DNA of 49,325 nucleotides. Source: Seison nebaliae (Eukaryota; Rotifera; Pararotatoria; Seisonacea; Seisonidae). The position numbers were made by a program, and so were the translations under genes. Below, one piece after another: positions 2,802-46,240 of this stretch. The notes below the pieces were generated by a model. It did not search any database, was not told where the DNA came from, and worked only from the letters and a program-made list of their open reading frames with translations. Where the stretch lies: contig JALJEE010000725.1 of assembly GCA_023231475.1 (NCBI GenBank), forward strand, positions 1 to 49,325. Direction: 5' to 3'. Every line of letters begins with the position of its first letter. Within the stretch, counting starts at the first letter, position 1.

Positions 2802-4604
2802 ATGAAAGTATTTAATTGTAACATCGGCATATTGGGACATGTAGACAGTGGGAAAACTACTCTTGCTAAATGTCTGAGTGAAATTGGAAGTGTGGCATCA
2901 TTCGACCGAAATCCCCAATCGAAAGAACGTGGCATAACTATTGATCTCGGATTTTCTTCCTTCAAATTACCATTAGAAAATGAAGAAATCCTCCAAATTA
3001 CTTTGGTAGATTGTCCAGGTCATGCGTCGTTAATTCGATCAATTATCGGTGGCGCTCAAATTATCGATCAATTAATTTTGGTGGTCGACATAACGAAAGG
3101 AATTCAAGCTCAAACTTTTGAATGTATCATTTTGGCAGAGATATTAGCCGAACAGAATGTCACAATAATTTTAACGAAAACTGATTTGTTGGAGAAAGAA
3201 AAACGACAGAAATTAATCGATAAAAGAATCCAATCTCTCAAGAAGATTTTATCGAATAAAACTAAATTGAAAAATTTAAAATTCTTCCCAATCTCTTTAA
3301 TGAGTGAAGATGTTGAAAATGATAAGATTAATTTAAAAAAATTATTAAAAGAACAAACGAATATTGGAGAGATCAGGAAAAGATATGATGACAATATAGA
3401 AAATCCTCAATTATTAATGGCGATTGATCATTCATTTCAATTAACAGGAGTTGGAACTATTTTGACTGGTACGATTCTCAGAGGAAAATTATCAGTAGGA
3501 CAAATGGTAGAAATTCCGAAATTGAAGGAAAGTCGTAAAGTGAAGAAAATCGAAAGATTTCATGAATCAATTTCTCGTGCATATATCGGCGATCGAATTG
3601 CTGTTTGTATTCAACAATTAACAGTGAAGGAAATTGGACGTTGTCTTGCTGTCACACCAGATAGTATGCATTTGGTGAAAACATTTATTATTCGTTTATC
3701 ACCCGTCAAATATTTTCGTCATACTCTTCGAACAGGTCGTCATTTCCATTTGTCATTGAATTATGATACAGTTGATTGTACAATCGATTTATTCCAACCA
3801 TCAAATCAACCTCTCGTCAGTTATGTTTCGAGTAGAGAATATGAGGAAGAAGAAGAAGAGAAGAAGAAATGTGGTGAAATTGTGATTGAGAAAAATTTCG
3901 ATTTAACTCGAATTTATTCATATATCGAAGAGATTGATTGTGAAGGAAAAATAGTGGATGATCGATGGTATGATAAAGATAATATAAATAATAATTTAAA
4001 TAAACAAATTTTTGCCGTTGTTCATGCTCAACGTCCATTTTTATTACCGAAAAATGAAGGAAAATCTATTAAGCTTATCGGCTCTCAATTGGATATGACT
4101 ACATCAACATCATCAGATGTATCATGTCGAATTGCTTTCTCCGCTGATTATCTCATTTCTCTAACCGAAGTCACAACTAATGAGGAGAATACTCGAATGT
4201 TAACGAGTGATGGACAAGTAGAATATAAAAATCAATTGAAAATTTATAAATCTTATGAACGGAAAGGAACCGTTCAACGCATAACTGATGACGGAATAAT
4301 CTGTTCTAATCTAGTGAAGAAACAATCGAGTATTCAACCATTCATTGGATGTCAAGTGGCAATTGGTGAGCAGAAATTATTAGGAATAATTCAATCGTTT
4401 TTTGGTAAGAGTGGGAAAATTTTGATAACTCTCTTCAATTCAAGTTCTTCATTTTTCTTTTCATTATTCAAAATATTTTTCGTTGAAGATCCAAAAATAG
4501 ATTTAGAAAAAGAAAAGAAAAAGATGAAAATTGGTGATGAAGTTCTATTTAAGTATAGGAAATATACTTATGGATTCAATTCGAAACGGATGTGTCAAGG
4601 ATAA
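2802..4604 (+). CDS. EEFSEC: selenocysteine-specific translation elongation factor eEFSec
   Basis: An intronless gene of 600 codons. It is a GTPase of the EF-Tu/SelB class that delivers selenocysteinyl-tRNA to ribosomes at UGA codons. The G motifs are intact: GHVDSGKTT at residues 12-20, ERGITIDLGF at 42-51 (the eEFSec switch-I signature), DCPGH at 70-74 and TKTD at 125-128. The beta-barrel domain 2 follows (LTGVGTILTGTILRGKL, about 210-226). The C-terminal domain, divergent as usual, carries a poly-Glu/Lys stretch near 350 and a hydrophobic insert (SSSFFFSLFKIFFV) near 560 before the final GDEVLFKYRKYTYG segment. Length is close to the animal family. The start is the first ATG, two codons before the conserved core. 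Its intactness implies the organism still makes at least one selenoprotein. Confidence 0.92.
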   Translation: MKVFNCNIGILGHVDSGKTTLAKCLSEIGSVASFDRNPQSKERGITIDLGFSSFKLPLENEEILQITLVDCPGHASLIRSIIGGAQIIDQLILVVDITKGIQAQTFECIILAEILAEQNVTIILTKTDLLEKEKRQKLIDKRIQSLKKILSNKTKLKNLKFFPISLMSEDVENDKINLKKLLKEQTNIGEIRKRYDDNIENPQLLMAIDHSFQLTGVGTILTGTILRGKLSVGQMVEIPKLKESRKVKKIERFHESISRAYIGDRIAVCIQQLTVKEIGRCLAVTPDSMHLVKTFIIRLSPVKYFRHTLRTGRHFHLSLNYDTVDCTIDLFQPSNQPLVSYVSSREYEEEEEEKKKCGEIVIEKNFDLTRIYSYIEEIDCEGKIVDDRWYDKDNINNNLNKQIFAVVHAQRPFLLPKNEGKSIKLIGSQLDMTTSTSSDVSCRIAFSADYLISLTEVTTNEENTRMLTSDGQVEYKNQLKIYKSYERKGTVQRITDDGIICSNLVKKQSSIQPFIGCQVAIGEQKLLGIIQSFFGKSGKILITLFNSSSSFFFSLFKIFFVEDPKIDLEKEKKKMKIGDEVLFKYRKYTYGFNSKRMCQG

Positions 4605-5002: not shown

Positions 5003-5163
5003 AATTCCTACTTCAACACTTTTATGAAATTATTAATTATGTAAACTTAGAATTTGAATGTTTGAAAAGGAATTTATTTAAGAAAATTTTTGAGTTAAGT
5101 TCAATTTTGACGAGGTGTAATGAGAGGGGAAGAAGAAGTAGAAGATTAAAAAGTTCGATAAAT

Positions 5164-6270
5164 TTAGAAAATGATTTCATTCTTCTTATCTACCATCTTC
5201 TTGTGCTTTTGTAACCATTTTTTCAAATAACGTCTCATTAGACGACGAACCGCATTTTTTCCTCCTTTTCCTTTACTCTTATTTTCTTTGACGATAATAT
5301 TCGTATTTCGTCGATCACTCGCTCGTGGTTTTACTTCACTGTCAAACATAACTTTCGAACCATTGTCACCACTAACTGAAACTTCTCCGTCAGCCATCTC
5401 ATCGATTGTTTCAGCTTCACGTCTCTTATTCGATTTGTTCTTTCTGTCATTCACTACAATATTAGTTTCAGCTTCTTTTTTCGTTTGTTCATTTACAACA
5501 ATATTCGTATTCCTTCGTGCTTTCTTATCAGAAGTGCGCGTCTCATCTACCATAATGTTGGTATTTCTTTTCAAATTATCATTATGATGTCTCCGATAGA
5601 ATTCACGATATTTACGGAATTTGGCGAGGATATTTCGTTTCATTAAATCTTCTTTTTCCAGTGCTCGTTTTTTATGAGATTGATTATCGAAACGAATCGT
5701 TTCTCCATTTTTCTCCTTCTTCTTTCCTTTACTTCCATCGTCATTCACCACTATGTTTGTATCACGTCGTTTCAATTGATCCATATGATCTTTGGATAAC
5801 GATTGATTATTTGAATAATATGGACTGGTATTTTCCTTTCCATTCAATTTATAATCATTTATAATTATATTCGTATTCGGTCCATGTTTCTTTCCATTTG
5901 CATCCTTTACATCCGATGTCAATTGATTAACAAAAATATTCGTATCTCTCTTCTTTTGTTCTTTCTTCTTGTTATGTTTACCTCCTTTACCTTGATCATT
6001 CACCACAATATTTGTATTCCTTTTCTCCTTCTCCAATTCCTTCTCATTCTCCAACTGATAATCGAGAAGAGAACTTCGTTGGAGAATCTCCAATAACTTG
6101 TGTTGTTTCTCTTCGTCCGATGATCGTTCACTTAACTTCCCATTGTCTTCTGTCTCTTGATAATCTATTCATCAATTATATTCACAATTGAAATATGTTG
6201 AGAACTAACCACTTAACTTGAATGCATTAATTGCAACGATAAATAAGAAAAAAATTATGAAACTCTTCAT
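5164..6270 (-). CDS. secreted repeat precursor with eight [N/D/E]TNI-type octapeptides (neuropeptide-like)
   Basis: Two exons. Exon 1 (6270-6210) encodes the signal peptide MKSFIIFFLFIVAINAF. A 45-bp GTTAGT..AATAG intron follows, then exon 2 (6164-5164). The predicted protein has 353 residues, mostly Lys, Arg, Asn, Asp and Glu. It carries eight copies of an octapeptide close to NTNIVVND at residues 70-77, 94-101, 117-124, 155-162, 221-228, 239-246, 253-260 and 307-314. The invariant core is TNI followed by two mostly aliphatic positions (one Phe, one Met) and a polar pair. Six copies directly follow KR, KKR, KRR or RR, and the other two lie 3-4 residues after KK. That is the layout of a prohormone cut by furin/kex2-type convertases. 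There is no regular C-terminal Gly amidation site. I recognise no known peptide family. An intrinsically disordered secreted or structural protein is the alternative. Confidence 0.7.
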
Positions 6271-17771: not shown

Positions 17772-18577
17772 TTACCCAGCAGACATGTTAGGGCAATAGA
17801 TACTGCCAGTCATTGTCAAACTTGAACTTTCTCTCAAAATCGAATCCAAACCAAACCAATCGCAATTGATAATTGAACATAAATTATAATTCAGTGAGTC
17901 TGCTTCCCAAAGAATAAAACGCCCGTCATAAACTTCATTTTCACTCACTTTACAAGATATTCTCTTATCGTCATGAATTTGAAGATGATTACATTTGACG
18001 CTAATTCTTCCTTTGTTCGTCAAAGCGTATAATAATAGAACAATATTTTCACACTTGAGGAATTTTTGGAAGCGAACCATCAACGCCATTGTTCGAAAAC
18101 CTCGAAAATAGTTATAATGATTTATATAAAACGAATCTGTTCCAATGTGTGTTTCTATAGGCCTATCCCATTGTGTTCGGAAATATATAAAGCAAACGTA
18201 ACTCAATAATTGTGTTCGATAATTATCGGAATTAAGTTCAATGGTACCTGCAATTGCGTTGTTCCTCTTCACTATCATCATATATAAATCATATAACTCT
18301 TTTAACGAATCAATTTTGGTAAATGAATGAAATGAGAACCTGCAACAAAATAAATCGGAAAGGTAGTTGGAGAACGGAGTACATTATATATTTGAGTGTT
18401 AGAGAAGTCCGTTATTGAAAAACCGACACAGTTAGTTTTTTTGGAGCATTGTAAGGCTAATTGTCTCTCATATGTACAATTGATGGGATTTCCAGTTGAA
18501 ACATATAATTTATATTCTACACAATAACTTAAGTGAAAGAGCAATATTTGATAAATAATGATTTTGACTAAAATCAT
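17772..18577 (-). CDS. secreted Cys-rich protein, paralog A
   Basis: Two exons: 18577 to about 18350 and about 18302 to 17772, joined by a GTTCTC..TTAAAAG intron. It has a signal peptide (MILVKIIIYQILLFHLSYC), then NCTYERQLALQCSKKTNCVGF, YNYFRGF, ISVKCNHL, ISCKVSENEVYDGRF, LCSIINCDWFGLDSIL and a short tail. About 250 residues. The cysteines match one by one those of the neighbour at 19547-20353, so the pair arose by tandem duplication. There is no membrane segment after the signal peptide, so it is probably extracellular. The first Cys cluster is slightly reminiscent of PAN/apple folds, but I cannot support a family assignment. Confidence 0.72.
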
Positions 18578-19546: not shown

Positions 19547-20353
19547 TTAAGCAGAACAATTAATTTTGTTATTGATATAAATTTGATAATAGATAGATCC
19601 ATCGGCCATAATTCTTTCTAAGTCGAACCATTGACAATTGATTAATCTGCATAAAGTTGTTTCACTTCCTATCTCCAATTCAGTCTGAGAAATATAAGTT
19701 CCATTATAAAGTTTACCTTCCGTTGTAGTGCAAGATACCTTATTTCCTTCATAAACGGTCAAATGGTTACAAACGACTGAAATTTCTCCGAGTAAAGATT
19801 TAGCATTTATTCTCATGGTGATATTATCACACCTTAAGCGTTTCTGAAGATTAACCATTCCGATGAAACCACTCGTTCCACGAAAATAATTTCGATAACT
19901 AAGAAAAAAAGAATTTTTCATAAAATGCGTCGAAAACTGATAATTGGATGATAGTTCATATTTTAACAATGTTGTATCACTTGTTATATACTGAACATAA
20001 TTGTCATAAGTGATAACTATTGGTAGAGATGTGTCCGCTAAATTGATTTTTGCCAATAAATGGAATAATTCTTCATATTCTTTTTAAGAAATAAAAAAAA
20101 TTAAAAAAAACTGAACAACACCTTTAATCAGATACACAGGACCTCTGAATGGATTTTTTTTCAAATATTTTTGGCTGGTAAAGATCTGATCATTAAAGCC
20201 GAGACATTTATATGTCTTATAACATTTTATTGCCAATTCTTTGTTCAAAGTACAGTTTGGTCGACTTCCATCAGAAAAAGCTAAATTGTATTGAGCACCA
20301 CAAACCACATTCCATAGACATTTCACTAAAATTATAATAAAAATTTTTTCCAT
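19547..20353 (-). CDS. secreted Cys-rich protein, paralog B
   Basis: Two exons joined by a GTGTTG..TTAAAAAG intron. The start is the ATG at 20353; an upstream in-frame TTG is not a likely start. Signal peptide MEKIFIIILVKCLWNVVCG, then NCTLNKELAIKCYKTYKCLGF, YRNYFRGTSGF, LRCDNI, ISVVCNHL, VSCTTTEGKLYNGTY, LCRLINCQWFDLERIM and a final CSA. All cysteines and the YxNYFRG, CNHL and INCxWFxL signatures are shared with paralog A (17772-18577), with low identity elsewhere, so the copies are old or fast evolving. Several N-glycosylation sequons are present. Probably an extracellular protein of unknown function. Confidence 0.72.
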
Positions 20354-24725: not shown

Positions 24726-26207
24726 TCAAATAACTACGAGTGATTTAGTGAAGTCTTCCATGTAAGGTGAAATGGAGAAACGAGTCGCGAAATAAAATAT
24801 CATTCCAAATAGAATTGAGATTGGCAAAGCAGGTAATGCCTTCCCAACCATTGAGAGAATGATAAGAGTGAATGAGAGACCGATAAGAATGGCAACAAAA
24901 CACAAAATTGTTGTATTCCAATCATTACTTACTGATGCTTTCCCCACTAACAAACTATAAAAGACGAAGTCACCTAAACCCAATTTCACTCCACTCGTTT
25001 CATTATCATCTTCCCGCTCTTGTTGTTGTTGTTGTCGAATTATTGAGGGAGTGATATTATTTTGTCGTGTATCATCAGATGATTGATTGATTGTTCGATA
25101 ATTATTATTATTATTATTATTTTCAGTTGATGATAAAACGAAATTATTTGTTGTTGTTGTTTGATTTTGAATGTCGTTATCGTTGTCATCATTATCACAT
25201 AATGTATCGTGAGTTTTAGTTGAAAGAATGGAATAGATTAATGTGGAGGAATAAATGATAGCGGGAAATAATTCATCTCCACGTTCTTGTGCTGTTTCTA
25301 CCAGAATTCTCAATGGACCATGTGGACATAAAACGGCGATGAGATCCCAAATAGCGATAAAAGCCAAAAGTACCCAACCGGTCCATTCGGGTAGAAATTG
25401 AATAAATACTGAAGCTATCAATGCACTTACAAAAACTAAATAAAATTGTCGTACAATTAACGGACCTTTCCAATGAATCGACAACATTCCCACCACAGCG
25501 AAATTATAGAGTAGAAAGACAACGGTGAACATATCGATGATCGTAGAATTTCCAACTGAACATAAATCACATACTAAAGTGTAAGTAAACCAAGAGACGA
25601 GTAATAATGTGGAGAGGAATAACCAAATTGTTATAAATTTCATACAACGGAATTTGTACATGAGCACAAGAAATATCGTCATGACAACGACCACAGCAAT
25701 GAAAATGAGAGCATTGACAATTGCTTTCCATGTTCGAGCACCACTACTTTCATTATCATTCTCGTCATAGACGATGTAAGGCAATCGGGCATTATTCATC
25801 ATCGATTCATCACCTTTCAATTTCATAATAATCACCACACCAATCATACAAATGGAAACTGGAATATAAATTTGAATGATGGAATATGCCGAATATCGTC
25901 TCTCCATTCCGTTACTCTGTTCCATATTATTACCATTACTCCGATCTATTGGAGTTAATTCATCTTCAACTTGTGGTCTTGTCGGTGATGGTGATGGTGA
26001 CTCAATTGGTATTTCAACGGTACGAGCATTATATACAACTTCGTCACCTTCTGATGACTCTCCACCAATCGATTGTTTCGACGATTCAATATTCGGCTCA
26101 TTTCCACCATTCTCCAAAACATCCAAAATCGTTTGTTCATTATACCATTGTGTTCCTCGACTTCCATTATTCTCATTCAAATTCACTTTATATACTTTCT
26201 TCGCCAT
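24726..26207 (-). CDS. PSEN: presenilin, catalytic subunit of gamma-secretase
   Basis: A single-exon gene of 493 residues. Presenilin is a nine-pass intramembrane aspartyl protease that cuts Notch and many type I proteins in the gamma-secretase complex. The catalytic Asp residues are D288 (AIWDLIAVLCPHGPLR) and D413 (LGLGDFVFYSLLVGKAS), and the PALP motif is at residues 459-462. ETAQERGDELFPAIIYSS is nearly invariant in the family. The cytosolic N-terminus (1-105) is acidic and Ser/Pro-rich. The large loop (about 330-405) is Asn/Gln/Thr-rich and lacks similarity, as usual. Lack of introns is unusual for a presenilin in an intron-bearing genome and might reflect retroposition or intron loss. 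The start is the first ATG. PEN-2 lies at 45734-46033 in the same window. Confidence 0.96.
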   Translation of the reverse strand: MAKKVYKVNLNENNGSRGTQWYNEQTILDVLENGGNEPNIESSKQSIGGESSEGDEVVYNARTVEIPIESPSPSPTRPQVEDELTPIDRSNGNNMEQSNGMERRYSAYSIIQIYIPVSICMIGVVIIMKLKGDESMMNNARLPYIVYDENDNESSGARTWKAIVNALIFIAVVVVMTIFLVLMYKFRCMKFITIWLFLSTLLLVSWFTYTLVCDLCSVGNSTIIDMFTVVFLLYNFAVVGMLSIHWKGPLIVRQFYLVFVSALIASVFIQFLPEWTGWVLLAFIAIWDLIAVLCPHGPLRILVETAQERGDELFPAIIYSSTLIYSILSTKTHDTLCDNDDNDNDIQNQTTTTNNFVLSSTENNNNNNNYRTINQSSDDTRQNNITPSIIRQQQQQEREDDNETSGVKLGLGDFVFYSLLVGKASVSNDWNTTILCFVAILIGLSFTLIILSMVGKALPALPISILFGMIFYFATRFSISPYMEDFTKSLVVI

Positions 26208-45733: not shown

Positions 45734-46033
45734 TCATAATCGTCCTCTTGGTGGGATTAATGTGAGTTTATCTCCGAATTCACCCCAATCGACACGCTTT
45801 TTTTGGAAAACTATTATCCAAGTAGTTAAAGCAATCATTGAAATTATGAATCCGATAGCACTGGAGATAACATAACGACGAATTTGAGGATCACGTCTTG
45901 ATTTTCCAAAAGCATATGAACCGAACCAAAAACAATTAATGAGCCACACTAATGGTAGAGCGGCACATCCTATGTAAAAATATTTTTGACACAATTTCCT
46001 TCGATCGTTTTCACTAATTTTATCTAATTTCAT
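45734..46033 (-). CDS. PSENEN: PEN-2, presenilin enhancer / gamma-secretase subunit
   Basis: 99 residues from the ATG at 46033, which aligns with the known family start (MKLDKISENDRRKLCQKYFY). The frame is open further upstream to an ATG at 46159, but the added residues are not family-like. Signatures: LPLVWLINCFWFGSYAF (first hydrophobic part, the WLxNxFWF motif), RRYVISSAIGFIISMIALTT (second helix) and WIIVFQKKRVDWGEFGDKL, ending IPPRGRL. PEN-2 is needed for presenilin endoproteolysis and activity in gamma-secretase. Presenilin itself is 20 kb away in this window. Confidence 0.93.
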   Translation of the reverse strand: MKLDKISENDRRKLCQKYFYIGCAALPLVWLINCFWFGSYAFGKSRRDPQIRRYVISSAIGFIISMIALTTWIIVFQKKRVDWGEFGDKLTLIPPRGRL

Positions 46034-46240
46034 TGTCCCATATATTTTCCGACGAAATCGGACTAATTTAATCAACAAATCTATCATTTTTAATCTTAAG
46101 TTAATACATACATCGTTTATTACAACACGAGAAAAGCCAAATAAATTTCTAAGAAACAAGCTTCATCTTGTCGTTATTCATAAAATTCAATTTTGTATAA
46201 ATATGGAAACTAATTAAAATATGACTAATTATTAAACTAA

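Follow-up and report, generated by a model that had tools for sequence, protein, structure and literature searches.

Seisonidea, relatives of rotifers and acanthocephalans with an epizoic way of life, include Seison nebaliae, and one small gene of this species raises the question of whether eight near-identical octapeptides in its product are pieces of a secreted signalling precursor or parts of a protein that works intact. The window considered here is the whole 49,325-nt stretch of contig JALJEE010000725.1. A first, sequence-only reading had placed an octapeptide gene at positions 5164–6270 and described it as a candidate new neuropeptide precursor; the gene is present between these positions, on the minus strand. 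Below we combine its gene model, a diverged paralogue, the arrangement of basic cleavage sites, and comparison with known peptide systems to ask what its products are likely to be.

Gene model and octapeptide repeats

The putative multi-copy peptide precursor gene (5164–6270, minus strand) starts with an ATG at 6270 and has two exons, the first at 6270–6210 (61 nt) and the second at 6164–5164, with the stop codon at 5166–5164. The 45-nt phase-1 intron between them (6165–6209, minus strand; GTTAGT...ATAG) is predicted. Sixteen GT-AG choices leave the reading frame open, and the 6209–6165 intron yields exactly 353 aa, a spliced product identical to the unnamed S. nebaliae protein SNEBB_005317; a paralogue also carries an intron in the matching place. 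Downstream of the stop codon, at a distance of about 86 nt, is a candidate polyadenylation signal, AATAAA (5073–5078, minus strand).

The first 16 residues of SNEBB_005317, MKSFIIFFLFIVAINA (6223–6270, minus strand; the cleavage point is a guess), resemble a signal peptide, with a best Kyte-Doolittle 11-residue mean of 3.55 at residue 4 vs. a maximum of 0.95 past residue 40. The signal peptide and the 353-residue length proposed earlier were both recovered, the former as a hydrophobic N-terminus detected by hydropathy only. The protein is very basic and Lys/Arg-rich (pI 9.8, the same value as for the paralogue).

Eight octapeptides beginning with [NDE]TNI had been claimed, and all eight were found (coordinates on the minus strand). 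Six directly follow a dibasic or tribasic run: octapeptides 1 (NTNIVVND, 5995–6018) and 5 (NTNIMVDE, 5542–5565) are preceded by KR, 6 (NTNIVVNE, 5488–5511) and 8 (NTNIIVKE, 5284–5307) by RR, 2 (DTNIFVNQ, 5923–5946) by KKR, and 4 (DTNIVVND, 5740–5763) by KRR. The others begin shortly after KK, octapeptide 3 (NTNIIIND, 5854–5877) three residues past it (KK-HGP-NTNI) and octapeptide 7 (ETNIVVND, 5446–5469) two residues past it (KK-EA-ETNI), the latter with RK immediately after. Among 5,000 shuffles of the whole protein, the mean number of motifs was 0.0026 and the maximum was 1, vs. the 8 observed. A recent tandem DNA repeat is excluded as their origin, since the repeats differ at synonymous codon positions and Tandem Repeats Finder reported no array at the locus.

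Several other genes were recognized in the window. A presenilin gene (PF01080, E 1.6e-131; 24726–26207, minus strand) and a PEN-2 gene (PF10251, E 2.4e-31; 45734–46159, minus strand), both for gamma-secretase subunits, lie ~19.5 kb apart. An ORF at 2802–4604 (plus strand) has domains of eEFSec, the selenocysteine-specific elongation factor, which suggests that selenoprotein synthesis is retained in Seison. Two 169-aa ORFs (17772–18281 and 19547–20056, both minus strand) resemble diverged tandem paralogues by eye, and neither has a Pfam match above cut-off.

Paralogue, constraint and distribution

Protein and own-genome searches both returned a diverged paralogue, SNEBB_000256 (287 aa), on contig C820. 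Its N-terminus is also strongly hydrophobic (best 11-residue mean 3.31 vs. a maximum of 0.44 past residue 40), and, as in SNEBB_005317, a single phase-1 intron of 45 nt interrupts its gene immediately downstream of the sequence for the signal peptide. It contains five octapeptides, four of them directly after RR. Spacing between octapeptides is irregular in both proteins, at 14–66 residues in SNEBB_005317 and 17–111 in SNEBB_000256.

The residues T, N and I are invariant in all 13 octapeptides of the two proteins, even though synonymous sites have diverged nearly to saturation. At the protein level the octapeptides are strongly constrained (pN/pS 0.19) and their flanks are not, with values of 0.85 over the six residues that lead up to the dibasic position and 0.98 over the ten that come after the octapeptide. 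The earlier statement that only the octapeptides are conserved holds, with the addition of one further conserved block. Loss of the octapeptides with retention of the spacers had been named as evidence against a precursor; the opposite was seen, but the comparison is with a paralogue within S. nebaliae, whereas the criterion concerned related species.

The further block emerged when the octapeptides were masked and the two proteins compared by BLASTP, which gave a single confident match (SNEBB_005317 residues 167–215 vs. SNEBB_000256 residues 143–190, E 1.1e-6; next match, E 0.28). Within it, and in the alignments, lies a second conserved segment, NILAKFRKYREFY (5596–5634, minus strand), a candidate 13-residue peptide flanked by KR and RR. 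The segment ends in YR[DE]FY and has KR before it and RRHxN after it in both proteins; the paralogue version is SVWDQFVFYRDFY, and that of SNEBB_005317 has an internal RK.

Neither protein has a Pfam family above cut-off or an NCBIfam match; Ribonuclease_3 (E 0.048) and DUF6277 (E 0.67) were considered as known domains and rejected, as they fall below their own cut-offs. Searched against PDB sequences, the two-row alignment of the paralogues had no credible match (best E 0.37). An AlphaFold2 model of SNEBB_005317 made from the two-sequence alignment is poor (mean pLDDT 44), with helices at residues 2–23 (the signal peptide), 32–68, 181–221 and 322–352, and with nearly unstructured octapeptide regions.

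Relatives were sought among 5.8 billion proteins using SNEBB_005317 (5,295 candidates scored), the two-row alignment (at least 7,993) and SNEBB_000256 (864) as queries. Solely the two Seison proteins were returned; among the matches, none lay outside Seison at E values up to 10 and none came from a second seisonid, in searches that could miss relatives sharing a short motif with other spacing. Nor did a literature search find a paper containing the octapeptide motif strings, so the description of the family as a candidate new one stands on both counts.

Pattern searches of the animal's own genome covered 36 Mb, similar in order to the 44–46 Mb given for Seison in the part of PMC8351084 available to us. 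Four patterns gave 91, 20, 17 and 17 matches, of which 12, 10, 10 and 7 fall inside the two known genes, and the reversed-pattern controls gave 29, 5, 3 and 13. Outside both genes the first three patterns leave 79, 10 and 7 matches, more than their reversed controls, an excess that might reflect the composition of the patterns or the presence of a few diverged members. Judged by eye, multi-copy same-strand clusters of the four patterns occur at SNEBB_005317 and SNEBB_000256 only, and the first pattern (91 matches) has no other same-strand pair within 4 kb. None of the 23 outside matches of this pattern that were inspected (of 79) is directly preceded by a dibasic site; for the second pattern, context was inspected for 4 of the 10. 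A single RNTNIIIRD at C633:48281 (plus strand), in a short open stretch after one Arg, could be the last exon of a third family member that has diverged, or a chance match.

Predicted processing and alternative readings

A dibasic pair stands directly before 10 of the 13 octapeptides (six in SNEBB_005317 and four in SNEBB_000256), while 8.0% and 5.6% of all positions in the respective proteins are so preceded. In 20,000 spacer shuffles and 20,000 random placements for each protein, the observed counts were never matched. The three exceptions are KK-HGP-NTNI, KK-EA-ETNI and R-GI-DTNI, the last after a single Arg. All 10 dibasic runs that adjoin an octapeptide on its N-terminal side have Arg as their last residue, vs. 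15 of 27 runs elsewhere (Fisher p 0.015), a bias that comes from SNEBB_005317 (p 0.015), as SNEBB_000256 by itself gives p 1.0. Arg-ending pairs are the better convertase sites.

At the other end, a dibasic site immediately follows one of the 13 copies; in the remaining 12, a dibasic site first appears 2–56 residues further along, and a single Lys or Arg 1–6 residues further along. Cutting solely at dibasic sites would give peptides of 8–35 residues in 12 cases and of 64 in one. Because a dibasic site directly follows just one copy, the mature peptides are unlikely to coincide with the octapeptide and are probably longer and ragged. With the downstream sites at such distances, the predicted peptides would be alike in their N-terminal core and unlike at the C-terminal end, whereas amidated neuropeptides usually show the opposite layout.

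A Gly amidation signal had been reported as absent. There is indeed no general signal, but two predicted fragments of SNEBB_005317, those of octapeptides 2 and 4, could end in Gly before a Lys run (DTNIFVNQLTSDVKDANG-KK and DTNIVVNDDGSKG-KKK). These are its two G[KR][KR] sites; SNEBB_000256 has none, and neither protein passes a published amidation-repeat filter. Both pass the multi-copy filter described in the portion of PMC8557429 available to us (at least five dibasic sites 5–25 residues apart), but so do 1,311 of 2,000 shuffles of SNEBB_005317 and 350 of 2,000 of SNEBB_000256. Dibasic sites are common in proteins of such Lys/Arg-rich composition, and the filter is therefore of little weight here.

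Taken together, these features make it probable that SNEBB_005317 and SNEBB_000256 are precursors of processed, multi-copy secreted signalling peptides, most likely neuropeptides. The original precursor interpretation is supported by the signal-like N-terminus, the repeats that start at KR/RR and a paralogue that retains octapeptides while its spacers have changed. On its hydropathy, the precursor would enter the secretory pathway via the signal peptide. A prohormone-convertase-type protease would then cut after the KR or RR that stands before most [N/D]TNI[V/I][V/I] cores, exposing a defined N-terminus of the [N/D]TNI core, and further cuts at basic sites downstream would yield peptides with this common core and a variable C-terminal end. 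Release of the KR- and RR-flanked 13-residue peptide that ends in YR[DE]FY may accompany theirs. The core-bearing peptides would probably act through a receptor at the cell surface, with the N-terminal core as the part recognized.

Profile searches of the Seison genome for precursor-processing machinery gave nine P_proprotein (convertase P-domain), one Secretogranin_V/7B2 and 11 Cu2_monoox_C (copper-monooxygenase C-domain) matches, counted exon by exon, so that the gene numbers are lower; these agree with the precursor reading. Furin-type enzymes carry P-domains as well, and Cu2_monoox_C is shared with dopamine-hydroxylase-type enzymes; the matches do not single out PC2 or PHM.

A more detailed version of the precursor reading is tentative, and we would not expect all of its parts to hold: a Seison-specific two-gene system with a receptor-read N-terminal [N/D]TNI[V/I]V core, Arg-ending dibasic cleavage, free ragged C-termini and a co-released YR[DE]FY peptide. 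In such a system the KK-EA and R-GI copies would mature through dipeptide trimming; the EA of KK-EA-ETNI recalls, speculatively, dipeptidyl-aminopeptidase trimming in yeast alpha-factor. If true, such a system would turn around the arrangement usual for neuropeptides, which are amidated and conserved at the C-terminal end.

Peptides cut by convertases in the same way could also serve outside the nervous system, as products of an exocrine or epidermal gland (e.g., in defence or in life on the crustacean host), with maturation unchanged. Sequence anatomy does not by itself separate neural from glandular secretion, Seisonidea live on Nebalia (PMC8351084, in part), and the lack of matches outside Seison in the protein searches fits a lineage-specific trait. 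However, the [ND]TNIVVND core has neither the positive charge nor the many cysteines typical of antimicrobial peptides, and repeated near-identical cores would better suit receptor ligands; we consider a glandular role unlikely.

It is similarly improbable, in our judgment, that both genes encode intact, secreted, largely disordered basic proteins of an adhesive, matrix or egg-shell type, in which the octapeptide and its adjacent basic residues form a binding or assembly motif. The high pI of both proteins agrees with this, as do a model of SNEBB_005317 in which structure is confined to four helices (including that of the signal peptide), the lack of a dibasic site at the C-terminal end of all copies but one and upstream of three of the 13, and the attachment of Seison to its host. 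Cleavage is better suited by the Arg ending of every run directly before an octapeptide, though 10 of the 16 other sites in SNEBB_005317 end in Lys, and the irregular spacing and unconstrained flanks also argue against an assembly motif. That the 13-residue segment (NILAKFRKYREFY / SVWDQFVFYRDFY) is the main bioactive product, with the octapeptides as spacers or protease-recognition elements, is very improbable: it is the sole confident match outside the octapeptides, is set between KR and RR in both proteins and has a loosely similar SEWTKFYKAYMDY after the last KR of SNEBB_000256 (by eye; masked BLAST pairs the start of the latter with SNEBB_005317 at E 0.28), but conservation runs past RR into HxN, an RK interrupts it in SNEBB_005317, the modelled helix there may mark a structural part of the precursor, and it is present once, vs. 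eight or five constrained octapeptides.

Context and comparison with known peptide systems

If the two genes are precursors of signalling peptides, they fall in a poorly sampled part of the animal tree. In the part of PMC8557429 available to us, an in-depth survey of gnathiferan peptides is called the next frontier, Gnathifera are described as lacking deeper sampling, and a study of three Rotaria species is noted to have found very few precursors. The word “neuropeptide” is absent from the main text of PMC8351084 and PMC12256650, and because a literature search for neuropeptide and Seison gave no title on seisonid peptides, this may be the first peptide family reported for Seisonidea. A two-gene family with a clear core offers a peptide suited to synthesis, antibody raising and testing. 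Its occurrence in Paraseison or acanthocephalans would make the family a marker for the branch of epizoic and parasitic forms; restriction to Seison would make it a case of a recently invented peptide.

FMRFamide and RYamide precursors have been reported from several phyla, Rotifera among them, in the portion of PMC6425005 available. As a control, the RFamide pattern RFGKR gave 84 matches in the Seison genome vs. 79 for its reverse, with no clustered precursor found and three same-frame amidation sites absent from all 30 loci inspected. This control is uninformative, and the comparison below is therefore made without a known Seison precursor.

Multi-copy invertebrate neuropeptide precursors (e.g., PMC8557429) are alike in having a signal-like N-terminus, several short conserved copies that mostly start after KR or RR, unconserved spacers and no other domain. 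They differ in that dibasic sites do not define where the Seison octapeptide ends (one does so in 1 of 13 copies) and a Gly amidation signal is almost absent; cleavage and neuronal expression of the Seison copies are predictions.

Pedal peptide/orcokinin precursors are also multi-copy, and the starfish peptides, like most of those predicted here, are non-amidated (PMC5814872, in part). The starfish peptides have 19 residues with the motifs GR(T/S) and LT(H/N)LXSGF(H/N) in the available text of the same source; compared by eye, [ND]TNI[VI][VI] has neither the motifs given there nor the hydrophobic pattern.

Among rotifers, the APGW/AKH precursor of Brachionus plicatilis likewise holds repeated short peptides and KR sites, but the part of PMC10730642 available describes three APGWamide copies and one AKH from an intronless gene, with no TNI motif. 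Feeding circuit-activating peptides (FCAP) of three Rotaria species are similarly multi-copy, with 8–9 copies (PMC6425005, in part). Scallop FCAP read like SLDRLGGAYLHGF in the accessible portion of PMC5996578, and the Seison copies share no such residues, as judged by eye from the scallop and not the Rotaria letters. FCAP also vary towards the N-terminus, according to the available part of PMC6425005, whereas the Seison copies vary on the C-terminal side.
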